Shown here one piece after another: positions 28,599 to 38,930 of a stretch of 64,000 nucleotides of DNA (the first letter of the stretch is position 1; each line of letters begins with the position of its first letter). The notes beneath the pieces were generated by a model. It did no database searches. It saw only the letters and a program-made list of their open reading frames with translations, and was not told the origin of the DNA. Where the stretch lies: positions 682,001-746,000 of the forward strand of contig NZ_KZ857173.1 in NCBI RefSeq assembly GCF_003350925.1, written 5' to 3'. Source of the DNA: Dyella tabacisoli (GTDB lineage: Bacteria; Pseudomonadota; Gammaproteobacteria; Xanthomonadales; Rhodanobacteraceae). A program made the position numbers and the translations under genes.

Positions 28599-29519
28599 TC
28601 AATCGGCCGAGCCGCGCACCAGCAGATGCTTGGCGATATCGCCTTGCATCAGCCCCAGCGCGCGAACCAGGTGCAAAGTGGTAAACAGTAACCCGATACC
28701 GATCAGGCTAAGGGCCAGGGCATCGCCGATACCCGGGGTATGTGCGCCAAAACCAAAATCGACCGTGACACGGCTTTCAAAATCGCTAAAAAGCCAGGCA
28801 AATGGTGCACCGATAAAGCCGACCGAAAGACTTAACAAGGTGACGGTGAGTGTGAAGTAGACGACGCCTAGCGGAAGCATCAACAGCATGTAAAACAAGG
28901 TCGACCATGTGCGCGCATCAGTGAACATAGCGCCAATCCGTTTCATCAACGACATGGCCGCCTGTTCGGGATACGGCGGCCGGCGCGGCATGCGCACCCC
29001 AAGCATGGCCTCGACGATGCGCCCCTCCACCAATGACAGCGCGCGTACGGTTCCGAAGAACAGCACCACGAACGGAACGCCGATAATCAATACCGAAAAG
29101 CCAGCCGATAACGCGATGCCGGTGACCGCCCAGGTAAAGTAAAAAATGCCGGTCGCCAACGACAACAACATGTAAAACATCGCGCCGTAGGTGCGTGGAT
29201 CGGCGGCGACACCAAAGAAGCGTCCAGTCAGCGAGCGACGCTTAGGCGCCGGCGGCGGACGCAGTGCACGCTGGATTTTGATCTCCTGATCGCGATAAAG
29301 CTCGGCCACCTCTTCAGGTGCGCCATAGCTACCGACCACATGAGCCAGCATCTCGGCCTCACTACGGCCGGGTTGTTCGGCCAGTTCGGCGCGCAAGTGT
29401 TCCTCGGCGTCGTACAAGGCATCTTGAATCAAGGCCGGATCGGCGCCGCGCAACGCGGCACGTAGTTGATCCAGGTATTGCGCAATCGTGCGCGGCGCAT
29501 TGGTGTCCTGCGTATTCAT
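28599..29519 (-). CDS. Membrane protein with HAAS-like N-terminus and sensor domains
   Basis: A 306-residue inner-membrane protein. Residues 10-70 resemble the DUF1700/HAAS helical signalling region (YLDQLRAALRGADPALIQDALYDAEEHLRAEL). Two similar membrane blocks of the putative-sensor type follow, each with paired hydrophobic segments (MFYMLLSLATGIFYF and LFYMLLMLPLGVVYF), suggesting internal duplication. Its start overlaps the PadR stop as TGATG, behind an AGGAGGGG site, so the two are translationally coupled. Such pairs often regulate envelope stress or antimicrobial responses. Confidence 0.8.
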   Translation of the reverse strand: MNTQDTNAPRTIAQYLDQLRAALRGADPALIQDALYDAEEHLRAELAEQPGRSEAEMLAHVVGSYGAPEEVAELYRDQEIKIQRALRPPPAPKRRSLTGRFFGVAADPRTYGAMFYMLLSLATGIFYFTWAVTGIALSAGFSVLIIGVPFVVLFFGTVRALSLVEGRIVEAMLGVRMPRRPPYPEQAAMSLMKRIGAMFTDARTWSTLFYMLLMLPLGVVYFTLTVTLLSLSVGFIGAPFAWLFSDFESRVTVDFGFGAHTPGIGDALALSLIGIGLLFTTLHLVRALGLMQGDIAKHLLVRGSAD

Positions 29520-29881
29520 CACACCCCTCCTTGCAAAACGGTATCGACAGAATCACGGGTGGCGGTCCAGGCAGCGACCCACTCACGCAACACCTCGCGC
29601 CCCAACTTAGTCATGCGGTAATAACGTCGTGGCGGCCCACTCACCGAAGGCTCCACTTCGCTGGCCAGCAGCTCGGCCGCCTCCAGATTGCGCAACACCG
29701 GATACAGCGCACTCTGCTTACCAGCCAGCACGCCCTCCCCCACTTCTTCCAAGCGTTTGGCGATCTGGTAGCCGTACATCGGCTGACGACTTTGACTAAG
29801 CACAGCCAGCAACACCAGCGACACGGTGCCGGAGGCCAGCTCCTTCTGGAATTTCTTCAGTTGGCTGGCGTTGTCGTCCAC
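29519..29881 (-). CDS. PadR-family transcriptional regulator
   Basis: A 120-residue PadR-like winged-helix regulator. The HTH region reads GTVSLVLLAVLSQSRQPMYGYQIAKRLEE, followed by the family wing (SALYPVLRNLEAAELL and PPRRYYRMTKLGREVL). Start is GTG with an AGGTGA site upstream. It is coupled to the downstream membrane sensor gene and probably autoregulates the pair. Confidence 0.88.
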   Translation of the reverse strand: MDDNASQLKKFQKELASGTVSLVLLAVLSQSRQPMYGYQIAKRLEEVGEGVLAGKQSALYPVLRNLEAAELLASEVEPSVSGPPRRYYRMTKLGREVLREWVAAWTATRDSVDTVLQGGV

Positions 29882-29967
29882 TTAACTCACCTGCACGGCT
29901 ACTTACCCATGACTGAATCATAGTGTTTAGTTAACACTAGTGAATGAGCCGGAAGTCATGGGGGACG

Positions 29968-30053
29968 AGACTTTGGTGTGTGGGCATGACACCAATGTAT
30001 GTACGCGTTGTACAAACATTGGTGTCATGGGGGATGTACAAACAATGGTGTCA
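29968..30053. repeat. Inverted-repeat element, left flank of the cassette array
   Basis: A 14-bp perfect inverted repeat (CATGACACCAATGT at 29985-29998 and its complement at 30016-30029), plus a third partial arm near 30038-30053. The segment TGTGTGGGCATGACACCAA (29977-29995) recurs exactly at 38643-38661, on the other side of the cassette array. No gene is seen between the PadR start (29881) and 30199. Confidence 0.75.
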
Positions 30054-30198
30054 GTTGGCGCAGCTACCCTTGAGACAGGAGGGGCGAGCGATCCCTTAGG
30101 GCATTAAACGCCTACCCAAGAAGGGGCCTGGCTTGGACGCCAAAATGGGGGACCGACCTATAAGGTCGAAAGCGGACATTCTCCGTACTGTCCAGCAG

Positions 30199-30568
30199 TC
30201 ATTCGGTGGGTCGCCGCCGATGTGAGTCTTCGCTTGGGACCAGCTTGCCTACAAAGAGCCATAGCAAGCGGGCAATCACAACTATGAGTAGCGTTGTGCG
30301 CGAAGGGCCAAACTCGGACTCCCTGCCGCAGTAGTCGTTGCGGAGGTACACCTCAACCCGCTGGCCCTTCTTGGCGAAATCATGCGAACTGTCCACGACA
30401 TCTGTAAGGACACCGCCGCCGGTGGGCACGTAAACAGATACCTCGGCCGGTCCGACCTCATGTTGAACGCCGGGGGGACAGGAAGCGAATACCAATGGCA
30501 TACCAGGTATTGACCAACACGATCAGGACTATGGAGATAGTCAAAATCCGCCGTTGAATCCTTCCCAA
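30199..30568 (-). pseudogene. Frameshifted small two-helix membrane protein (cassette)
   Basis: Two overlapping frames together give a sensible protein. The N-terminal frame carries a membrane helix (ILTISIVLIVLVNTWYAIGI); the C-terminal frame carries GPAEVSVYVPTGGGVL, KKGQRVEVYLRNDYCG and a second helix (TTLLIVVIARLLWLFVGKL). They join if the six-G run at 30472-30477 (plus strand) loses one base. The start is unclear (TTG at 30568 or GTG at 30587). The stop is 18 bp from the leftmost half-copy of the hairpin. Function unknown. Confidence 0.5.
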
Positions 30569-30614
30569 GACACACCCCTTTGTTCACGTTTTAAGAAGTG
30601 ACATCAATAGCGCA

Positions 30615-30896
30615 TCAAAGCAGGTGCCAAATAGGGACCGTTGACAATAGCCCGCCCGCCACTAGAGCAAGAATTGAACGCCTGGTTGCAGATTGGAAGG
30701 CGAACCCCGCCAGCCATGTACCAACCAGAAGAGAAATTTGACCGAAGCCAAACCAACGAGCGATCACGTAAGGATTGGGCATGGGAACTGGGCCCGGGCC
30801 CGGATCAACCTGAGATGCGCCTAGTGCCATCGCTATCCCGATACCGCCTAAGAGCACAAATACCAGCGCCAGATTGGCGGCGAAGGTTTTCGTCAT
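30615..30896 (-). CDS. Small membrane protein (cassette)
   Basis: A 93-residue protein with three hydrophobic stretches: a signal-like N-terminus (LALVFVLLGGIGIAMALG), a middle segment with GFGQISLLVGTWLAGFAF, and LALVAGGLLSTVPIW. A GGGAGG site precedes the start at 30896. No family recognised. It lies between the 30950 hairpin and the frameshifted membrane gene, with no hairpin between the two. Confidence 0.6.
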   Translation of the reverse strand: MTKTFAANLALVFVLLGGIGIAMALGASQVDPGPGPVPMPNPYVIARWFGFGQISLLVGTWLAGFAFQSATRRSILALVAGGLLSTVPIWHLL

Positions 30897-30974
30897 CTGG
30901 CGCACCTCCCTTTGTAGCTCAGCAAGGAAAACTCCTTATATCGGTTTGGGTCCGCTTCGGGTCGGAAGCGGACC

Positions 30975-31488
30975 TTACCTTTTCGCATCCGCCCAATACA
31001 TAGCCCGGGCGAGGCTATCAGCATCATGACGTCCTGACTGGGCGGCAAGCTCATTGAGCTTTGCCTTGACCACGTCTCGGCCAAAAGTCCGCAGACACGG
31101 GGCTATGAAGAGCCGATTCGCACTTGGGTTCCATGTTGTGATGGAACGCAATGACCTCGTCCGTTCCATCGCAGCGGATACCCCACAGCTCGTCCGCAGA
31201 TGAGGAGCCAAAGAACACGTACGGGCTGAGATCAAGATCAGGCCAAGTGCCTTTGAATTCCGTCCAACAGAACATCGTCAAGCTCTTCAACGAACCAATG
31301 TGGTCTTCATCGGTTAATGAGAGTAGGTACTTGGCATTCCCCCTGTCTTCTCTGAACCCATCACATTCAAGGTACAGAGCCCGGAGCTGCTCCGGAAGAC
31401 GGACGCCTAACGCCGTCTCGACGGCCGCTATGTCTTCACCGGTCGCGGCCGCCCCGAACTCGCCATATGGATACATCATCCTTAGCAT
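30975..31488 (-). pseudogene. SUKH (SMI1/KNR4) family protein, frameshifted (cassette)
   Basis: The first frame carries the SUKH fold pattern: EDIAAVETALGVRLPEQLRALYLECDG, then a YLLSLT segment and ELWGIRCDGTDEVIAFHH. It then runs into a foreign-looking tail. Dropping one base in the T4 run (AAAA at 31083-31086 on the plus strand) continues it as DFGRDVVKAKLNELAAQSG and on to a stop at 30975, one base from the 30950-30973 hairpin, which is the normal cassette spacing. SUKH proteins are frequent immunity proteins against polymorphic toxins. An AAGGAG site precedes the start at 31488. Confidence 0.7.
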
Positions 31489-31546
31489 TTATTTCTCCTT
31501 GTAATCCAAAGTCCCGATGTCTGCTTTGGGTCGGAAGCTGACCTAA

Positions 31547-31801
31547 CTAGCCTTTGAGCTCTACAACTTCTCCGACCGCCAGCTTGGTCAAATCCGCTGG
31601 CGAAAGCACCTGAAAGGCAAATACGGACAAGTCCGGCGTGCCATCCGGCTTCATGGACCGAGGCTGGTTAACGCCTCTCGCGATTGGGACGTCATTGAAA
31701 GTTGGTTTCTCCCCAAGCTGAAAGTCACCGGGCTCCAACCGCCGAACGATCACGTAAGGCGATGGCGTTGGTCCGGATATGTATTCAACCTTGAACTGCA
31801 T
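31547..31801 (-). CDS. Small hypothetical protein (cassette)
   Basis: An 84-residue cytosolic-looking protein without signal peptide or membrane helix. Notable segments are VIVRRLEPGDFQLGE and the end LSPADLTKLAVGEVVELKG. No family recognised. The stop lies 4 bp before the hairpin at 31519-31542, and the start is 36 bp from the 31837 copy. Confidence 0.6.
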   Translation of the reverse strand: MQFKVEYISGPTPSPYVIVRRLEPGDFQLGEKPTFNDVPIARGVNQPRSMKPDGTPDLSVFAFQVLSPADLTKLAVGEVVELKG

Positions 31802-31874
31802 AAATCAACGCCCCCCCCTATTTCGTCGACCGAACTGTCCGCTCTGGGTCGAAAGTGGACATCAAGACCAACGC

Positions 31875-32177
31875 TTAGAGCTCTTCAAATTCACCCGTTT
31901 CGGCGACATAGAAGCGCGCGCTCAACCGATTGCACAGCTGTCGCAGAACGGCCCGCTCCTCGTCTCCCCATACGCCGCTAACGGTGATGGCGCGTGGGTC
32001 GGCGCTCTCCTCAGGGCCTTCGATATTGGCTGTAAGCATCAGGTGTTCCGTGCCTGACATGAGCTCCGCGACAATGCTTTCCACGACTTGCCTTTGTCCA
32101 AGCGGAGCCGGCATCCAGTCCTGGCTTAACGACCCCGCATTTGCGTCCGCTCGCACGATGATTCCAATGCTGCTCAT
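31875..32177 (-). CDS. Small hypothetical protein (cassette)
   Basis: A 100-residue soluble protein. It opens MSSIGIIVRADANAG and ends ARFYVAETGEFEEL, with a central GTEHLMLTANIEGPEE segment. The alternating strand/helix pattern suggests a compact alpha/beta domain, but I do not recognise the family. The stop is 14 bp from the hairpin at 31837-31860, and the start 22 bp from the one at 32200. A GGGAGG ribosome site precedes the start. Confidence 0.62.
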   Translation of the reverse strand: MSSIGIIVRADANAGSLSQDWMPAPLGQRQVVESIVAELMSGTEHLMLTANIEGPEESADPRAITVSGVWGDEERAVLRQLCNRLSARFYVAETGEFEEL

Positions 32178-32230
32178 TCACACCTCCCTGTCAGAAAGTG
32201 TCCGCTATGGGTCGAAAGCGGACATTGAGG

Positions 32231-32482
32231 TTAGACCAGTTCGATGTATAGAACTTGGTCTGGATGATGTTCCCTGATCGTCGCCGTAGCCTCTTCCACG
32301 GCGGACTCATCGACAGGATCAATCCAGTGCACGAAGTCTGTTAGATCGAAGCCCTCGGTGCGGAGCTCCTTCATTTCAAGCTCATCAAGCAGCCCCCGGT
32401 TCACCCAGATTGCTGTCTTGCTTCCCCTGGCAAGATCGAACATCTCGCTTAGGCCATGCTTCGTAAGTGCGAAGATAACCAA
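32231..32482 (-). CDS. Small hypothetical protein, TTG start (cassette)
   Basis: An 83-residue acidic protein (IFALTKHGLSEMFDLARGSK, then DFVHWIDPVDESAVEEA). The start is set at the TTG at 32482, because a perfect GGAGG lies 5 bases before it. The longer frame to 32626 would read through the hairpin at 32510-32533, giving a spurious DVRFRPEAG stretch. The stop is 7 bp from the next hairpin. Function unknown. Confidence 0.6.
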   Translation of the reverse strand: MVIFALTKHGLSEMFDLARGSKTAIWVNRGLLDELEMKELRTEGFDLTDFVHWIDPVDESAVEEATATIREHHPDQVLYIELV

Positions 32483-32570
32483 ATGCGCCTCCTTAGTGTT
32501 ACCTGGTATGCCCGCCTCGGGTCGGAAGCGGACATCCCCAGGCGCTGATGGACCGCCGTCCGTACAACCA

Positions 32571-33623
32571 CTAGCTGCCGAACGCTTGGGTGGCACGATC
32601 AAGTCGATCATCATCCTTGGGATCACCAGAGTGCAGGGTGTGCTCCAGCAGCAGTCCCTTGAGATGCGCCGGTATCAAGTCGACATCCTGCGGGTGGTAG
32701 CGCTTGAAACCCCATCCGGCGAAATACCGCGCAGCCCCCTCAAGCAAGGCGTCTTCGGCGCCGGGACTCTGCGCCACTGTCACGATTCGCTCAGTCGGAA
32801 AATCCAGCAATAGGGCATTTGCGATGTCCTCGTAAGCAGGATAGCCGCTCCAAGGGCCCACCCCTGACCCATTCAAGGTCAACAGCCTCCGAATCCGCTC
32901 ATCGCGATCGGCGACTTCGGCTTGAAGGGCGCTCTTCAGGTCGTCCAATGCTTTCCCATGGGGATTCATGCCCATGCGAAACTGCGGATCAGTATCCCAG
33001 ACGCGACGGATTGACGTCGGCATCGCTGGAAGCCATCGCCTCATTCCCTCGTCATACTTCTTCTGCTGTTCTCGCTGACTCGCCAGCGAATCTTCCAGCG
33101 AGTGGGAAAGCGGAACGTGAAGACTATTCATCAGTTCGTTTAGTGCCGCCGGCGAGCCCGCGGCACCGACAGATTCCAGAAGGTGACTATCGCGGTAAAT
33201 CTCAAGCTGATGACAGGAATAGCAGAGCAGGAAGTCGTAGGTGTGACCGTTGGCTTGTATCCGCAATGCATGGCGTGGATCGAAGCATGCGGCAACGATG
33301 TTATCGAACCCGGCGATGGCTGAATCAATAGCTGCAACGGCGTTCGCTCGCTGAGAAGGGTTCAATGGCGACTGCCCGAGAATCTCAAAGCTCTGAAGCC
33401 TCGCTACTTTCTCCTCAGGATCAGCCCAAGGCTCAAGCGAATAGAGGACAGCCGAACCTCCCGAATGAAGCGCGGCCGCAACCTCGGCAGATAGCACGTT
33501 GGGCCGGGCGTAGACAAATGCAGGTGCGGCAAGCAAAACGATGGAGAGAATTCTGGTAACGAAGGCGGCCACCTTTCTAGAGACCGTCAAAGTTTGATTC
33601 TTGTTCATTTCCTGGTTCCATCG
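32571..33623 (-). CDS. Secreted hypothetical protein, about 350 residues (largest cassette gene)
   Basis: A signal peptide or N-terminal anchor (VTRILSIVLLAAPAFVYA) is followed by a soluble region. Conspicuous segments are FDNIVAACFDPRHALRI, YDFLLCYSCHQLEIYRD (a CYSC pair) and a C-terminal helical part (RIRRLLTLNGSG, ANALLLDFPTERI). The middle resembles proteins that end up in the periplasm, but no family is recognised. The start at 33623 has AAGGA 9 bases upstream; ATGs at 33632 and 33608 are alternatives. It lies between hairpins at 33671 and 32510. Confidence 0.65.
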   Translation of the reverse strand, partial: RWNQEMNKNQTLTVSRKVAAFVTRILSIVLLAAPAFVYARPNVLSAEVAAALHSGGSAVLYSLEPWADPEEKVARLQSFEILGQSPLNPSQRANAVAAIDSAIAGFDNIVAACFDPRHALRIQANGHTYDFLLCYSCHQLEIYRDSHLLESVGAAGSPAALNELMNSLHVPLSHSLEDSLASQREQQKKYDEGMRRWLPAMPTSIRRVWDTDPQFRMGMNPHGKALDDLKSALQAEVADRDERIRRLLTLNGSGVGPWSGYPAYEDIANALLLDFPTERIVTVAQSPGAEDALLEGAARYFAGWGFKRYHPQDVDLIPAHLKGLLLEHTLHSGDPKDDDRLDRATQAFGS

Positions 33624-33725
33624 CATGCTCATCAATCCTTGTCTGATTGAAAAATCGACCAGTTCTGAGTGTCCGCTCTGGGTCGAAAGCGGACGGTTGA
33701 GTCTTACATCGCGGGTTAGTAGCCG

Positions 33726-34205
33726 TCAGCTATCACCGTCAGCACCATGCCCCCCAATCTTGCTGTCTTCGGCAAAACTGACCTCGATGTTGCTTCCGCG
33801 CGACTCAGTCCCGTAATAGAAGCTCACGTCTACGCGATCCAGGCTCACGCGGGATGAAAACTGCGTCGCCGGCGCCAGGCAGACGATGACGTCTTTTGCG
33901 TTATTGCCGGAAAACTCGATGGCGCCATGGTCCATCAGGTAGTCGCAGACAGACCGGGCAGGTTCATAGCTTGAAAACGTGCACCTTTTTGCAGCGAATA
34001 CGTAGCCTTGTGAAGACGAGTCCTTGAAATCACTACCCCACGAAGTATGAAACTCCAATGTCCTTGACTCGCCCTTCTTGACCGACGCGACGAAGGCCCT
34101 GAGAGGAGAGCACAGCGGATCTCCTTTAGCTTTGGCTGCACCAAGACAAGGAAGGCCGGCTACGGCCAAGGCCGCTGATGCGATAGCCAAAATTTGAATC
34201 TTCAT
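33726..34205 (-). CDS. Secreted hypothetical protein (cassette)
   Basis: A 159-residue exported protein with a clean signal peptide (ILAIASAALAVAGLPCLGAAKA) and several cysteines (PLCSPL, KRCTFS, SVCDYL, VIVCLA) that could form disulfides. The start at 34205 has a GGGAGGGG site. Starting at 34271 would read the hairpin at 34246-34269 as MSAFGPKRT and is rejected. The stop lies 31 bp before the 33671 hairpin. Function unknown. Confidence 0.65.
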   Translation of the reverse strand: MKIQILAIASAALAVAGLPCLGAAKAKGDPLCSPLRAFVASVKKGESRTLEFHTSWGSDFKDSSSQGYVFAAKRCTFSSYEPARSVCDYLMDHGAIEFSGNNAKDVIVCLAPATQFSSRVSLDRVDVSFYYGTESRGSNIEVSFAEDSKIGGHGADGDS

Positions 34206-34270
34206 TCGCCCCTCCCGCACCCCTTTAATTAGCACCATTAAAAGCGTCCGCTTTGGGCCGAAAGCGGACA

Positions 34271-34504
34271 TTAGAACCCTCTCCAGGTGTCCTTACAGCG
34301 ACCGCAGGGACAATCCAGAAGCCACGCGGTTCCACGCGCCTCCACCGATATGACGTCACCACAGTATGGACATACCTGATCTACCGGAAGTCCTCTGGAG
34401 TATTCGCACATCGCTATGTACGAAGGCTTGGCATGCGCAGGGAGTGACTTACCTCTGACGAATTCATCAGCCTCTCGCTCAATGTTTTCGATGATCGAAT
34501 CCAT
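34271..34504 (-). CDS. Small putative zinc-ribbon protein (cassette)
   Basis: A 77-residue protein whose N-terminal half is helical (ENIEREADEFVRGK). Its C-terminal half has paired cysteines, CPYCGD and then LDCPCGRCKD, a likely zinc ribbon. The stop is directly adjacent (1 bp) to the hairpin at 34246-34269. Function unknown; nucleic-acid or protein binding would be usual for such a module. Confidence 0.62.
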   Translation of the reverse strand: MDSIIENIEREADEFVRGKSLPAHAKPSYIAMCEYSRGLPVDQVCPYCGDVISVEARGTAWLLDCPCGRCKDTWRGF

Positions 34505-34588
34505 GACTTCCCCTAAGCAAAGGTCCGGCAGCTAAAAGGTCCGCTCTGGGTGGGAAGCGGACACTTCGAACCTTGCTAACCGCTGCCG

Positions 34589-34807
34589 CTACTCCATATT
34601 TTTGTAGCGATAGGTTCGAAAGCCGTCGCCCTGCAAAAAGCTATCCGGCTCCCAACCTCGCTTCAGTACGTGATCCGTGATGATCGCCATATTGATGCCT
34701 ACCGGGTCCAGCAACTGCTGAGAAATCGTCAGTCGAAAATCCGACGCTTGGCCCTCAAACGCAGCCACCTGCTGCACCGCATCCTGTACAGAATCAATGA
34801 TCTTCAT
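34589..34807 (-). CDS. Small hypothetical protein (cassette)
   Basis: A 72-residue protein (IIDSVQDAVQQVAAFEGQAS and a C-terminal HVLKRGWEPDSFLQGDGFRTY). It has no signal peptide. Both ends lie 26 bp from flanking hairpins (34539 and 34834). No family recognised. Confidence 0.58.
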   Translation of the reverse strand: MKIIDSVQDAVQQVAAFEGQASDFRLTISQQLLDPVGINMAIITDHVLKRGWEPDSFLQGDGFRTYRYKNME

Positions 34808-34866
34808 CGACCGTCCCCTGTCTCCTTGAAAGTGTCCACTTCGAGTCGAAAGCGGACATTTCCCTG

Positions 34867-35094
34867 TCAGCTATTTGTAGGCACAACCTCGTAGCGCGGT
34901 TGCCCGGGTATCGGACTGTCAGGCATCACTCGAATCCTACGATCCCTGATCAACTCGTTTATTGCTGGCATGAGAGACGTGGTCATCTCGGGGTTGGCTC
35001 CCATAAGACGCCGGTCCAATTGGTACCAAGTCCAACGACCATCGTTTTGCGCGATAGCCTCGAAAACCAGTTCCTTGAACTCAACGAAGTCCAT
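34867..35094 (-). CDS. Small hypothetical protein, possible winged-helix fold (cassette)
   Basis: A 75-residue protein. FKELVFEAIAQNDGRWTWYQ, then LMPAINELIRDRRIRVM and PRYEVV, read like a small helix-turn-helix with a beta wing (an LRDRGLI-like ending). That reading is by pattern only. The stop is 9 bp before the 34834 hairpin. Confidence 0.58.
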   Translation of the reverse strand: MDFVEFKELVFEAIAQNDGRWTWYQLDRRLMGANPEMTTSLMPAINELIRDRRIRVMPDSPIPGQPRYEVVPTNS

Positions 35095-35174
35095 TCAGCC
35101 CCACCTGTTCACTAGATCGTGGTCTCGATACGTAAGGTCCGCTATGGGTCGGAAGCAGACCTTACCAATGATGG

Positions 35175-35414
35175 CTAGGGCTCCGAAATTTCGAACCTGA
35201 TGGTAACTCCTGCTCCGTCGTCGGCACCCTGATAGCCAACAAGGAAGCCCTCATATATTGATGCTTGGAGCCATCGAAGCCCCATAGCCAAATCCACTGA
35301 TTCCCATTCAGGGATAAGGCATGTCACCGGCTCACGCCCGCCAACTAGCGCGAGCAGGTTGGCTCTCGCCTCTAGCCATCTATCCTCCACACCGCGATCC
35401 ATGGACTTCCCCAT
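35175..35414 (-). CDS. Small hypothetical protein (cassette)
   Basis: A 79-residue soluble protein with EDRWLEARANLLALVGG, LAMGLRWLQASIYEGFLVGY and a final TIRFEISEP strand. No family recognised. The stop is 14 bp from the hairpin at 35137-35160, and the start 29 bp from the 35444 copy. Confidence 0.58.
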   Translation of the reverse strand: MGKSMDRGVEDRWLEARANLLALVGGREPVTCLIPEWESVDLAMGLRWLQASIYEGFLVGYQGADDGAGVTIRFEISEP

Positions 35415-35506
35415 CTAGAGCTTTGAAGGGCAATTTAAAAAGCGTCCGCTTCGGGTCGGAAGCGGACGCTATTGAAGTCTGGTGATTGTACGCGACGGAG
35501 GCACCA

Positions 35507-35959
35507 TCACTTGGAGACGGATCGTTGGAACGACCAAACTCGCTCGAAGATTAAGCGACCTTTGGCCTCGTTGCCCCAGAACTCGCCAGCAGGCCTTGGC
35601 GTGTAAGTTCCTGAGACGTCTATCTCGAACTCTACCAACTGGTGCGAAAGCGCGTGCTCTTCAGTCGCTTCATCAAAGCGCTGAACACTCTCATGAACCG
35701 GATCGCTCATCATCAGCCCCTTTTGTATAACCAGCCCCTTGCATTTGGGGTCGTCAAGAAAGGCGCCGTGCCGAAGATCGGTAACGAAGTGTGCCCTGAC
35801 GTGAGCACGAATCGCGTCGGCCGGCCTGGCCTTTTCGGCCAGCTCGCAAATCGAGATGGTGCGCTCGCCTGCTTGAGCAACGTATTCCTCCGCGTGTGTA
35901 GGAGATACCGTGTAAGCCAATAGAAGAACTGCTCTAAAACCAGAGGCCACATACCTCAT
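35507..35959 (-). CDS. Secreted hypothetical protein (cassette)
   Basis: A 150-residue protein with a short signal peptide (GFRAVLLLAYTVSPTHA), then AGERTISICELAEKA, DPKCKGLVIQKGLMM and a C-terminal strand-rich part (VEFEIDVSGTYTPRPAGEFWG). It is probably periplasmic. No family recognised. It sits between hairpins at 36002 and 35444. Confidence 0.62.
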   Translation of the reverse strand: MRYVASGFRAVLLLAYTVSPTHAEEYVAQAGERTISICELAEKARPADAIRAHVRAHFVTDLRHGAFLDDPKCKGLVIQKGLMMSDPVHESVQRFDEATEEHALSHQLVEFEIDVSGTYTPRPAGEFWGNEAKGRLIFERVWSFQRSVSK

Positions 35960-36027
35960 GCTCCCCTCCCAGGGAATCGCCCGCCAGGCACCCTAATGCA
36001 AGTCCGCTTCGGGTCGGAAGCGGACAT

Positions 36028-36363
36028 CTACGATCCCTCAACAATCTCCCCAGCCTCAAGCTTCTTAACGAGCGCAGCGATCAACAACTCGTATACCGAA
36101 TTTGCCGCGCTCTCGCTCGGAAGATAGAAGATCTTTGAGAGGCAATAGCTGGTACCCAGCTCCCGATTGATTTCAGCCAGCCCGGCAGTCACTTGCCTAA
36201 GCACTTCTCCAGGTTCAGCGCGCACCTTGCGGGTATCCTCTGCCCCCAACGCAACAAGCTCAATTTCCCCTGGATGATCGGAAAACGTCACGCCAAGAAG
36301 ATTGTCTTGCGCGCCCGTGATTCTGGCGATCTTGTAAACGTCCCCGCTTTTTACAAGTTGCAT
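36028..36363 (-). CDS. Small hypothetical protein (cassette)
   Basis: A 111-residue soluble protein: a beta-rich N-terminus (SGDVYKIARITGAQDN, then EIELVALG) and a helical C-terminus (LRQVTAGLAEINRELGTSYC, ELLIAALVKKLEAGEIVE). The start at 36363 has GGAG 7 bases upstream; the longer frame to 36396 begins inside the shortened hairpin at 36391. The stop is 2 bp from the 36002-36025 hairpin. It recalls small immunity-type proteins, but no family is assigned. Confidence 0.62.
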   Translation of the reverse strand: MQLVKSGDVYKIARITGAQDNLLGVTFSDHPGEIELVALGAEDTRKVRAEPGEVLRQVTAGLAEINRELGTSYCLSKIFYLPSESAANSVYELLIAALVKKLEAGEIVEGS

Positions 36364-36429
36364 CCACCCACTCCATAAGGCGCCAGAAGTGTCCACTATG
36401 GGAAGCAGACACTGGCTCCTGTCGAAATA

Positions 36430-36699
36430 TCACTGTCCAGGCTGCCAGAGGACTCTGGTCCCAATGGGAACCTGCTCTTTCCGCAGCTCAGGTAAATAGA
36501 CAACCAGCTTGTAGCCGCCGGGTCGGAAGTGTTCGACAGTTAGGCGCGCCTGAGCCTGGATAGACAAACCGTCCGGGCGTTCGACCAGAACATCATGGAT
36601 CGAATCTTTGGTCCGATCGTGGAGCAGTAAATCGGGAGCCAACGCCAATCCGCGGCCAGCGATCTCAAAGGTGTCCTTTACTTCTAAAAGCAGTTCCAT
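36430..36699 (-). CDS. Small beta-barrel-like hypothetical protein (cassette)
   Basis: An 89-residue protein opening MELLLEVKDTFEIAGRGLAL, with a late YKLVVYLPELRKEQVPIG and TRVLW. The order of strands resembles a domain II-type translation-factor barrel, as small stand-alone proteins of this sort sometimes show; this is a weak resemblance. The stop is 19 bp from the shortened hairpin at 36391-36410. Confidence 0.6.
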   Translation of the reverse strand: MELLLEVKDTFEIAGRGLALAPDLLLHDRTKDSIHDVLVERPDGLSIQAQARLTVEHFRPGGYKLVVYLPELRKEQVPIGTRVLWQPGQ

Positions 36700-36762
36700 G
36701 TTGTCCCTCGATGACCGATTTCTGGCCGAGCTGCGATGTCCGCTTCGGGTCGAAAGCGGACA

Positions 36763-37350
36763 TTAAGTACGCTTCGACAGTTCGCCTTCGCGTCGACAAA
36801 TTTCCCGAACGAGAACGTCAGATAGCTTCATTGGCTCGTCGCCATGGCCCTCAACTATCGGAATCGCCCAGTCACAACCAGAGAGGCGGAAGTGCCGCTT
36901 CCAGTCAGGCAACGCCAATAGCTCATCGGTCCTCATTCGCCTTGATCCACCCATCTCACCGTGGCCGCCACCAATGGATTCACCTACATCAAATAGGTTG
37001 GCGCTGAACGGAAACAGATAGACGCCATAGACGTGGTGAGTTGGATGGGTCTCCGTAGGGGCCTGATTCTTGTAGCTTAAACGAAGTACTTGGTGCTCTA
37101 GGCCTTCTTTCGTGAGAGGCGTCGAGTTCCGATAAAGGTAGGCGGCGGATAGCTCACCAATCTCGGGCCATGTGATGGAACTGACCGTATAGGACAGGTT
37201 CTTTAGCCTGTTGGGATAGGCCAGCGCCGGCCAGCTCATCTCTTTTCGCGCAATCTCTGCGTCGAACAATCTGTGTTCGGCTCCGCCAAACTCGATGACC
37301 AACTGCCAAGTTTCATTGGGTACGACCCGCTCAAGTCCAGGTGCCGTCAT
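36763..37350 (-). CDS. Hypothetical protein with DUF2442-like N-terminal region (cassette)
   Basis: A 195-residue protein. Residues about 15-80 follow the DUF2442 pattern (a GG.EHRLFD strand, WPALAYPNRLKNLSY, then ITWPEIGELSAAYLY). The rest is unassigned (HHVYGVYLFPFSAN, RMRTDELLALPDW and a C-terminal LSDVLVREICRRE helix). The stop abuts the hairpin at 36738-36761 (1 bp), and the start is 36 bp from the 37387 copy. Confidence 0.62.
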   Translation of the reverse strand: MTAPGLERVVPNETWQLVIEFGGAEHRLFDAEIARKEMSWPALAYPNRLKNLSYTVSSITWPEIGELSAAYLYRNSTPLTKEGLEHQVLRLSYKNQAPTETHPTHHVYGVYLFPFSANLFDVGESIGGGHGEMGGSRRMRTDELLALPDWKRHFRLSGCDWAIPIVEGHGDEPMKLSDVLVREICRREGELSKRT

Positions 37351-37416
37351 AGAGGTGCCTTTGTTAGATCCTCGCTCAGGAATAGTGTCCGCTTCGGGTC
37401 CGAAGCAGACACCCGA

Positions 37417-37927
37417 CTAGCGATCATGGAACCATTCCAGAAATTGTTCGGCAACATCCGAATCGAGCTCCAAGACGGCCTCTGCAATAGCGGCCTCACC
37501 TTTCGCGGCAGCTATGGCAGCGAGAGCTGCATTGCATGAAGCCATCATCGCAACGGCGTTTACTTGCATCCGCGACCAGCTGGGGAAGCTGCGACATGGC
37601 GCGTTTGTAGGTCAGTATCAGGTCGTCAGGTATGGAGATGTTCTTGCGTGCACGGCAGCACTCGACCCACGCCGGAAATTGAAAGTAGTTGGAGTCCGCT
37701 TTTAGAGGATCGATCGCGAGGGCCGCGATCACGTGCGGAACTGCGGCAAACGAGGCGGGATACACGCCTCCCTGATGGGCAAGTGAGCTCCATAGAGTCG
37801 CCCACGGCTCCTCCTCACAATCGCACGGAGGCACGCCATATAGCTGGCGAAGAAGATCCGGGATATCCGAGGCCGGCCCAAAAGCATGCCTCAACTCTTC
37901 CCATCGAGGGCTGTCCAGACTGAGCAC
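37417..37927 (-). pseudogene. Conserved hypothetical protein, frameshifted (cassette)
   Basis: The start is a GTG at 37927 behind a perfect AGGAGG. The first frame reads LSLDSPRWEELRHAFG, IPDLLRQLYG, WATLWSSLAHQGGVYPASFA and AVPHVIAALA, a pattern I recognise from a common hypothetical family. After VADAS it breaks. Removing one base of the TTT at 37559-37561 (plus strand) restores NAVAMMASCNAALAAIAAAK and runs to a stop at 37417, 6 bp from the hairpin at 37387-37410. That spacing supports the repaired reading. Confidence 0.62.
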
Positions 37928-37991
37928 CGATACCTCCTGTAAGTTGCCCACTAACGCGCCTTGCTTGATGTCGGCCTTGGGTCGCAAGCGG

Positions 37992-38256
37992 TCAGTCGAA
38001 TCTGATCGTCACATGCTTGGACTCGGCCGCCAATCCACGCAAGAACTGGCAAAGTTGGCCGCCGCCAACGGTCCGTAAGCCGTCAAAATTCTTCAGCCGA
38101 AGAACACACTCGCCCGGCCAACCCGGTCCACCTCCAACGGAAGGCATCCATGTTGCAGCCGAAACTGGCGGCACCCTCTGGCCTGACAGCGTCTAGATAT
38201 GCCAGCCAGAACCCGGCCTCATCTCGAACGCCAGAGCATTGAACAGCGAACTCCAT
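37992..38256 (-). pseudogene. Barstar-like protein, frameshifted (cassette)
   Basis: Two frames combine into a barstar-family pattern. The first gives MEFAVQCSGVRDEAGFWLAY, DAVRPEGAASFGCNMDAFR; the second continues GGGPGWPGECVLRLKNFDGL and ends FLRGLAAESKHVTIRFD. Barstar relatives have FGRNLDAFWDA..GGGPGWPG here, so the break just after MDAF (near 38135) is a one-base indel or small deletion. The start at 38256 has GAGGA 6 bases upstream. The stop overlaps the 37970-37993 hairpin. Barstar homologues inhibit RNase toxins. Confidence 0.6.
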
Positions 38257-38304
38257 TTCCATTCCTCATCATCGCTTTGAAGTGTCCGCTCCGGGTCGTC
38301 GGAC

Positions 38305-38930
38305 CTTCCCAGAATATAGCCGTAAGCGCTCGTCGGCATCCTGCCTACGTTCTTGAGTGCTACGGTGAAGATCCAGCACATCATCGATGCCATCAGAAGC
38401 GGCTGACCGCCACTTTTCCTTCTCGGAGGCACGCCCCGCATGACGCGTCCTAGCGGCCTGTCTGACACATACTTTGGTTGTCAAATCAAAAATGCACCCA
38501 GCCGGCATGATCGGCTAAGCATCTGTTTCAATTAGCCATATACTTACTTAGCTGTTCAACAGTCAGCAAAGTACGTACACGAGGCACCTCCACTGCACAC
38601 ACTTTGATCTCCAAGACTGCGCAGACTTTGCTGTCATGCCCATGTGTGGGCATGACACCAACCGATCATAGGCACCGCGTTGCGCAATCGGCCACTCAAA
38701 ATCGCAGCCACCGGCCCGAACCATCCGCTGACTCGAAGGCCTCGGGGCTCACGCCCCCCAGAGTGGCTTTGGCGATGTCAACGCTCCCAAACGGACAGAA
38801 TCCATCAATCCGTCGCTGCTCACCATCGAACTTGACTTGGCCAAACCCGCGGCGGGAAAATTGTTACCCCCTTCGCGGCCGGGTCTCGCTGCGACATGTT
38901 GGTGTGTGCGTACCTTCAATGGAGGTTCGT
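38305..38930. repeat. Gene-free stretch with repeat copy flanking the cassette array
   Basis: No convincing gene is seen. It holds a hairpin TGTCATGCCCA (38632-38642) / TGGGCATGACA (38647-38657) and the 19-bp segment 38643-38661 that recurs exactly at 29977-29995. Just upstream, CACACACTTTGATCTCCAA (near 38596) matches a motif repeated near 43595 and 44280. This is probably the right boundary of the array. Confidence 0.65.

Follow-up and report, generated by a model that had tools for sequence, protein, structure and literature searches.

The window analysed here is a 64-kb stretch of the 5.07-Mb Dyella tabacisoli genome (G000, contig C1), and it contains an array of small genes separated by copies of a 24-bp inverted repeat, GTCCGCTTYGGGTCGRAAGCGGAC, along which positions are numbered 0-23. 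Fifteen copies with four or fewer mismatches lie between window positions 30950 and 37970, all on the plus strand. Together with two half copies (right at 30154, left at 38284) and one degenerate copy around 36391, they bear out the count of about 18 given in a first-pass annotation of this DNA. The mean number of copies expected with five or fewer mismatches was 0, as determined from 40 simulations under a second-order Markov model of the window. In all 13 gaps between neighboring copies with three or fewer mismatches, the longest open reading frame (ORF) lies on the minus strand, with a median distance of 14 bp between its stop codon and one site and of 34 bp between its start and the next. 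Segments drawn at random outside the array, in contrast, gave 208 longest ORFs on the plus strand and 192 on the minus strand, with a median stop distance of 119 bp. The earlier description of one small same-strand gene per gap, with stop codons close to the next copy, therefore holds. The GC content of the array (0.54-0.57) is below that of most of the window, and some segments to its right also reach 0.56. Eighteen of the 19 window ORFs scanned had no Pfam match, PADLOC and NCBIfam searches of 10 and 8 window proteins, respectively, gave no match, and Rfam returned a single sub-threshold match.

All 26 copies in G000 with two or fewer mismatches fall within two arrays, 14 in the window and 12 at C12:106642-126068, and a looser pattern adds three lone places outside the arrays (C11:47898, C14:60121 and C1:258484). 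The first-pass annotation had placed every copy within the 8 kb of the window array, which is not the case, and had named genome-wide scatter as grounds for refutation, of which no sign was seen among the good copies. Across the family, 59 of 197 genomes have the site at one or fewer mismatches. Among named genomes, a scan found at least 119 stretches carrying it, in Dyella, Rhodanobacter, Luteibacter, Lysobacter, Pseudoxanthomonas, Sphingomonas, Caulobacter, Massilia and others, and nine more were found on viral contigs. Across 36 chosen loci, neighboring sites 120-1500 bp apart share the same orientation in 206/206 pairs, and the longest ORF is opposite to the site in 186 of them; 21 pairs that were too near or too far apart were set aside, and their orientations also agree. 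An independent set of 10 loci from four genomes (G141, G152, G077 and G130) gave the same picture, with orientation agreeing in 120/120 pairs and the longest ORF opposite in 110/120, after setting aside one pair closer than 120 bp and 21 pairs farther apart than 1500 bp, the latter including an opposite-facing G152 pair ∼3.2 kb apart. One-orientation sites with long gaps also extend over ∼109 kb of G141 (C1:258915-367968), perhaps a single very large decaying array.

When 321 site-to-site segments were compared, blocks of homology were found to start and stop at sites, with unrelated sequence beyond. These blocks are shared across species and genera, or between different arrays of one genome, and lie beside different neighbors. 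Recurring cassettes include pairs at 96% between D. japonica and Dyella sp. SG609 and between two arrays of G020, at 95% between D. mobilis and Rhodanobacter DHG33, and at 89% between D. silvatica and Rhodanobacter 7MK24; other blocks in common are incomplete or end elsewhere than at a site. Seven of the 19 window ORFs have relatives in other loci, six of them in other genomes and several between two sites. Both neighbors of a cassette are kept across loci in only two pairs, one from Lysobacter and one consisting of the same Luteibacter genome entered twice. Gene order is thus not kept between relatives, and the gene-shuffling interpretation proposed in the first-pass annotation is supported, as site and gene travel together between species and between arrays of one genome. 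From these footprints we infer that the cassettes have recombined.

The shared cassettes also indicate where within the site the exchange may fall. In pairs with the cassette to the right in common, position 15 agrees in 22/22 pairs, and positions 7 and 8 agree in 10/22 and 9/22. With the cassette to the left in common, positions -8 to 6 agree in 12-15 of 15 pairs, the left arm through position 6 staying with its cassette in 14-15 of 15, and positions 7, 8 and 15 agree in 10, 8 and 10 of 15, respectively. Background agreement at positions 7, 8 and 15 is 0.50, 0.48 and 0.48, and positions 7-8 differ from the neighboring flank with P = 1e-4 (the counts and the P value include two doubtful pairs, L018/L125 and L073). 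The set covers pairs of at least 85% and 100 bp with homology reaching the site, and omits Lysobacter-type and some other loci. It is suggestive of a switch between cassettes between positions 6 and 15, an 8-bp stretch, and goes no further because the pairs are few and partly dependent. Positions 7-8 do not track either neighbor consistently, a pattern that a staggered overlap resolved at replication would give. Tyrosine recombinases exchange strands across such an overlap and serine recombinases across one of 2 bp, and an overlap within NYGGGTCG is suggestive of the former.

The first-pass annotation had called the repeat a hairpin, a label that proves misleading. Among 606 distinct non-Lysobacter sites, the number of Watson-Crick arm pairs equals the expectation for independent columns at eight of nine pairs (for example, 438 observed versus 442 expected for pair 3/20), and the ninth, pair 8/15, shows a weak excess (319 versus 288, P = 0.013). 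Arms that lack compensatory change point to a site that behaves as a double-stranded recombinase site, and not as a hairpin; it looks like double-stranded DNA bound by two subunits. A longer version, in which the site is followed ∼59 bp on by a second, inverted site, was found as 49 elements in 18 loci, mostly of Lysobacter. These doublets are ∼83 bp long and occur in arrays of the same layout. Those of L049, L066, L120, L130, L135 and L156 usually measure 59 bp from start to start, and their halves could pair with each other everywhere but at the fixed positions 9 and 16, reminiscent of the bases left unpaired in attC.

A candidate enzyme was found with a profile built from 15 recombinases and run over the fetched loci. 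In all four loci with a nearly whole copy (Table 1), a tyrosine recombinase of ∼207-222 residues lies exactly at the pivot where site orientation flips, and no other nearly whole copy occurs in the bacterial genome loci fetched. The copy in Dyella sp. OK004 is 89% identical to that in G152, both being Dyella-type genomes, and the Lysobacter changpingensis and Pseudoxanthomonas copies are both at ∼60%. Most cassette genes in OK004 and G152 read away from the recombinase. Residues R58, K86, H155, R158, H181 and Y190 are invariant in eight aligned sequences, and we take them to be the catalytic R, K, H-x-x-R, H and Y. PF00589 matches the proteins of L263 and L121, and from residue 35 or 42 onward the enzyme can be aligned to the catalytic domains of XerH and XerD. 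Because only ∼34 residues precede the catalytic domain, the usual core-binding domain seems to be lacking. The integron-integrase model scores at best 26 bits against the enzyme, with a cut-off of 265. Judged by its sequence and location, this short tyrosine recombinase is likely the enzyme of the cassette system. The first-pass annotation had asked whether a recombinase co-occurs with the hairpins, and the answer is divided: one stands at the head of arrays in other genomes, and none was found in the window. The six PF00589 matches of G000 are all of other sizes, and the window and the fetched G000 pieces gave nothing beyond Xer-like genes. Fragments of the short recombinase lie near arrays in G001 and G050.

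Table 1. Features of the window array and of the loci with a nearly whole short recombinase (window coordinates unless a locus is named)
Feature	Position	Strand	Remarks
Right half-site (broken copy)	30154..30177	+	3' end of array
24-bp site, 0 mismatches	30950..30973	+	
24-bp site, 2 mismatches	31519..31542	+	
24-bp site, 2 mismatches	31837..31860	+	
24-bp site, 1 mismatch	32200..32223	+	
24-bp site, 2 mismatches	32510..32533	+	
24-bp site, 1 mismatch	33671..33694	+	
24-bp site, 1 mismatch	34246..34269	+	
24-bp site, 2 mismatches	34539..34562	+	
24-bp site, 2 mismatches	34834..34857	+	
24-bp site, 2 mismatches	35137..35160	+	
24-bp site, 0 mismatches	35444..35467	+	
24-bp site, 0 mismatches	36002..36025	+	
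Degenerate site	36391..36414	+	left part alone recognisable; family D5 copy at 36386-36405
24-bp site, 0 mismatches	36738..36761	+	
24-bp site, 2 mismatches	37387..37410	+	
24-bp site, 4 mismatches	37970..37993	+	
Left half-site (decayed)	38284..38307	+	5' end of array; 48 bp here and rightward like an array end in G152
Possible remnant cassette gene, 100 aa	30199..30501	-	no Pfam match
Cassette gene, 96 aa	30615..30905	-	GTG start; no Pfam match
Cassette gene, 145 aa	31051..31488	-	SMI1/KNR4 (SUKH-1) family
Cassette gene, 84 aa	31547..31801	-	no Pfam match
Cassette gene, 100 aa	31875..32177	-	74% homologue between two sites in Dyella silvatica (L033)
Cassette gene, 79 aa as query	32231..32470	-	actual start probably a little upstream; homologues flanked by a site on either side in D. 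jiangningensis (76%) and G141 (68%) (L123, L166)
Cassette gene, 354 aa	32571..33635	-	54% homologue 37 bp from a site in Lysobacteraceae bacterium P (L082)
Cassette gene, 159 aa	33726..34205	-	no Pfam match
Cassette gene, 77 aa	34271..34504	-	74% homologue within an array of G020 (L025)
Cassette gene, 72 aa	34589..34807	-	no Pfam match
Cassette gene, 75 aa	34867..35094	-	no Pfam match
Cassette gene, 79 aa	35175..35414	-	no Pfam match
Cassette gene, 150 aa	35507..35959	-	60% homologue between two sites in G152 (L173)
Cassette gene, 122 aa	36028..36396	-	GTG start; no Pfam match
Cassette gene, 89 aa	36430..36699	-	no Pfam match
Cassette gene, 195 aa	36763..37350	-	no Pfam match
Cassette gene, ∼155 aa	37496..37963	-	no Pfam match
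Partial cassette gene	37992..38174	-	62% to a barstar-family cassette gene of G152
Remnant cassette gene	38193..38468	-	runs across the decayed terminal site; partial relative confined to the second G000 array
Short recombinase, G152	L263:4471-5091		3' side 24 sites (+), 5' side 7 sites (-); nearest 5' site 61 bp, 3' site 893 bp
Short recombinase, Dyella sp. OK004	L282:7183-7806		3' side 1 site (+), 5' side 17 sites (-); nearest 5' site 61 bp, 3' site 25 bp
Short recombinase, Lysobacter changpingensis	L284:9019-9687		3' side 1 site (+), 5' side 1 site (-); nearest 5' site 31 bp, 3' site 60 bp
Short recombinase, Pseudoxanthomonas PXM01	L121:3914-4552		3' side 1 site (+), 5' side 2 sites (-); nearest 5' site 73 bp, 3' site 26 bp

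Taken together, the region is probably an integrase-less mobile cassette array of an integron-like system, in which a short tyrosine recombinase would act at a double-stranded site. Each cassette would consist of one small gene and the 24-bp inverted-repeat site ∼14 bp after its stop codon. The recombinase would bind the arms GTCCGCT and RAAGCGGAC and swap strands within the 8 bp between them, NYGGGTCG, the asymmetry of which would keep the cassettes in one orientation. Complete arrays would carry the recombinase gene at their head, divergent from the cassettes, and the site 31-73 bp from its start could serve like attI in integrons. In genomes with arrays and no intact enzyme, such as G000, the enzyme may act in trans or the arrays may be fossils. 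We further infer that the short recombinase acts on the site, that the recombination intermediates are circular, and that the pivot site is the point of entry.

Several observations weigh against this interpretation. No recombination activity, circular form or recent excision was seen. An intact short recombinase was found by the PF00589 search in only 3 of 19 distinct genomes (G152, G065 and G061; the 19 derive from 11 + 10 entries, with G065 entered twice and G145 identical to G228). Two of the four loci that define the pivot, L284 and L121, have one or two sites on the array side, and L284 ends at the end of its contig. Close relatives of the enzyme exist without an array, as those on five plasmids, 54-66% identical, lack an array of this site. 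The breakpoint pairs are not independent, with several drawn from a single cassette family; the 22 include a genome compared with itself (L018/L125), the 15 include a pair within a single locus (L073), and no vertical cross-genome pair was available to gauge the mutation rate of positions 7-8. Lastly, in alphaproteobacterial loci 17/17 pairs are co-oriented but the longest ORF is opposite in only 6/17 gaps, and the rule that genes oppose their sites is not shown to carry over to them.

There are other conceivable ways of moving the cassettes. One is that another enzyme moves them site-specifically and that the short recombinase is itself cargo, a cassette facing the other way, with a site 25-60 bp after its stop codon in three of four loci as for any cassette and with no intact copy in most array genomes searched. 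We consider this unlikely, given that the gene sits at the flip in 4/4 loci and that none of the other recombinase families shows a consistent link to the arrays. Lone tyrosine recombinases of other types do lie near sites: a 422-residue integrase 53 bp from the last OK004 array site, a truncated enzyme 216 bp from a G001 site, and a phage-type one ∼6.9 kb from a G020 array. Among 20 recombinase loci from five genomes (not every match in each), G000 and G019 share no non-Xer family at an E value of 1e-10. Clustering of ORFs near sites yielded common families and transposases that are presumably, by their sequence, IS30-like, and did not pick out the short recombinase because few loci hold it. 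A 553-residue serine recombinase with resolvase and recombinase domains is another candidate for the mover, as G152 carries two nearly identical copies, each with a following gene that has no Pfam match (L173:6413-8758 and L174:5392-7770), and each beside the end of a different array, 773-783 bp from the first site. However, this type was seen in only 2 of 17 genomes searched (G152 and G230), no site lies in the 15-30 kb fetched around the G230 copies, the homology between the G152 copies stops ∼100 bp before the sites, and the relatives of the enzyme come from viral contigs. With siteless copies and viral relatives it is probably unrelated to the arrays, and a central 2-bp overlap is at odds with the exchange of positions 7-8; that it moves the cassettes is barely credible. 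Movement by host XerC and XerD, as for dif modules in Acinetobacter, is very unlikely. Two strong Xer-like matches (of putative Xer identity) occur in the genomes searched, the 9-6-9 layout resembles Xer sites, and dif modules are genes between 28-bp sites with the crossover inside the site (PMC13141974). Nevertheless, the dif-like site found in 7/7 genomes does not resemble the array site, the two arms of an Xer site are not alike, dif modules take alternating orientations as opposed to the 206/206 agreeing pairs here, and 138/197 family genomes have no copy of the site at one or fewer mismatches.

Recombination might also require no site-specific enzyme. Direct repeats of ∼26 bp every 300-600 bp could recombine by homology or slippage, aided by transformation, which would suit the finding that the majority of array genomes searched have no intact short recombinase. 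This is improbable in our estimation, as the breakpoints end before position 15 in all pairs with a shared right-hand cassette, the left arm is kept through position 6, and a recombinase gene marks the array head. Alternatively, the cassettes are static and their repeats serve as operators, terminators or REP/REPIN-like hairpins. A palindrome placed between the stop of one gene and the start of the next would fit, as would the inverted doublets of Lysobacter, but the copies are clustered, the arms do not covary, cassettes occur beside different neighbors, and 6 of 11 site-rich genomes gave no match to the Y1 transposase model PF01797 (its G000 match is below cut-off). This explanation, which the first-pass annotation had also offered, is unsupported and exceedingly improbable. 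Lastly, the array could be a cluster of attC sites lacking integron-integrases (CALIN) that belongs to a classical integron and is acted on by IntI in trans. CALINs do have single-gene cassettes that share one orientation and no adjacent integrase, and the absence of IntI alone is not decisive because CALINs may lack it. The IntI model TIGR02249 exceeds its cut-off in 3 of 33 site-bearing entries (G001, G173 and G191, and not G000; G065 and G109 among the 33 look like one genome). The four IntI regions of 20 kb hold 0, 1, 0 and 3 sites, the nearest ∼2.1 kb from IntI in G191. attC sites carry the box motifs RYYYAAC and GTTRRRY, and no paired R and L boxes of this kind appear in a 259-site profile. 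These counts, together with the lack of arm covariation, leave the classical CALIN with hardly any probability. Separately, L183 (D. silvatica, G001, contig C2) has an integron integrase followed by an attC-like sequence, the surrounding 20 kb being free of array sites.

Bacteria are known to collect single genes as interchangeable cassettes mainly through integrons and dif modules. The present arrays share with integrons and CALINs single-gene cassettes in one orientation, a site just after the stop codon, cassettes common to several species, a head integrase gene divergent from the cassettes with a site between, and many arrays with no integrase. The head layout is found for the short recombinase in G152 and OK004, is consistent in L284 and L121 with their few sites, and is absent from the window; because no intact short recombinase was seen in G000, the arrays of this genome would be the counterpart of CALINs, which can be mobilized in trans (PMC12444791). 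In contrast to the folded attC (PMC8352920), the site here is a 24-bp inverted repeat of unrelated sequence and of a double-strand type, and the enzyme matches the IntI model weakly, far below its cut-off. Like the pdif/dif modules served by XerC/XerD in Acinetobacter, the arrays hold genes between two-arm sites with a central spacer, a crossover inside the site, and shuffling. Unlike dif sites, which alternate and have unequal arms, the present sites are direct, with symmetric GC-rich arms and a dedicated recombinase in some arrays, and the layout of the Lysobacter doublets differs from that of the modules. Compared with REPINs and their Y1 transposase RAYT, which likewise place short palindromes between genes and resemble the Lysobacter doublets in length, the sites here are clustered, with one gene per gap in one orientation and with gene and site moving together. 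The short enzyme aligns with the catalytic domains of the Xer recombinases XerH and XerD, yet it seems to have no core-binding domain and is linked to cassette arrays rather than to dif. Behavior and layout resemble integrons and site design resembles the Acinetobacter dif modules, and the arrays fail both sets of sequence tests.

A broader claim, which in our judgment stands at an even balance, is that this is a second, independent kind of integron, found in Rhodanobacteraceae, Lysobacter and Pseudoxanthomonas, with promoter-poor single-gene cassettes, a 24-bp double-strand site, and a non-IntI recombinase consisting of the catalytic domain only that captures cassettes at the array head. The enzyme family may in addition operate sister systems elsewhere on different sites. 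The literature searched, which did not extend to most subscription papers, gave no account of the site or of an enzyme of this type. If true, this parallel system, equipped with a site and an integrase of its own, would bring in a store of small mobile genes that has not been surveyed, software that seeks attC or IntI would miss the whole system, and what makes an integron could be asked by comparing two independent designs. With so small an enzyme and a short double-stranded site, the claim is directly testable in a laboratory strain, and the recombinase-site pair might serve as a DNA tool.

The short recombinase has relatives on 434 plasmid records. In seven of nine relatives examined (all except L294 and L295), a 24-bp palindrome with 9-bp arms follows the recombinase stop by 5-13 bp. 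Its bearers include plasmids L292, L293 and L296 and viral contigs L288, L289 and L290, and the Cupriavidus palindrome has the core CGGTCG. These palindromes may be terminators or the sites of sister systems. On L293, a Roseomonas gilardii plasmid, two copies of the family lie among small VOC, NUDIX, toxin-antitoxin and catB genes, a cassette-like setting that does not have the 24-bp site of Dyella.

The surroundings of the arrays add further observations. The window array (29519-38298) and an unrelated array of G152, which is given here as another genus (L172:5989-15306), both lie upstream of the same PadR gene. PadR matches occur in 148/197 family genomes; of 20 other PadR loci, 19 have no site in the stretch and the remaining one (G013) has sites 4-14 kb away, and in G109 PadR and a porin gene lie close together with no array. 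A 19-bp exact repeat, TGTGTGGGCATGACACCAA, and related motifs flank the window array at 29977-30053 and 38618-38661, upstream of PadR and of a gene that we take to be DUF1326-like, and are perhaps shared operators. The terminal half-sites were considered as attL/attR junctions and rejected, since the right one of the window is a decayed full site beside a remnant cassette and several at other array ends look like IS insertions. At six loci (L030, L034, L090, L123, L178 and G152d), array sites have IS30-like transposase genes within or beside them, and some insertions seem to split the site, as though the palindrome were the IS target. SMI1/KNR4 and barstar are immunity-type families, and an immunity role of the SMI1/KNR4 (31051-31488) and barstar-like (37992-38174) cassettes might explain what retains such cassettes.

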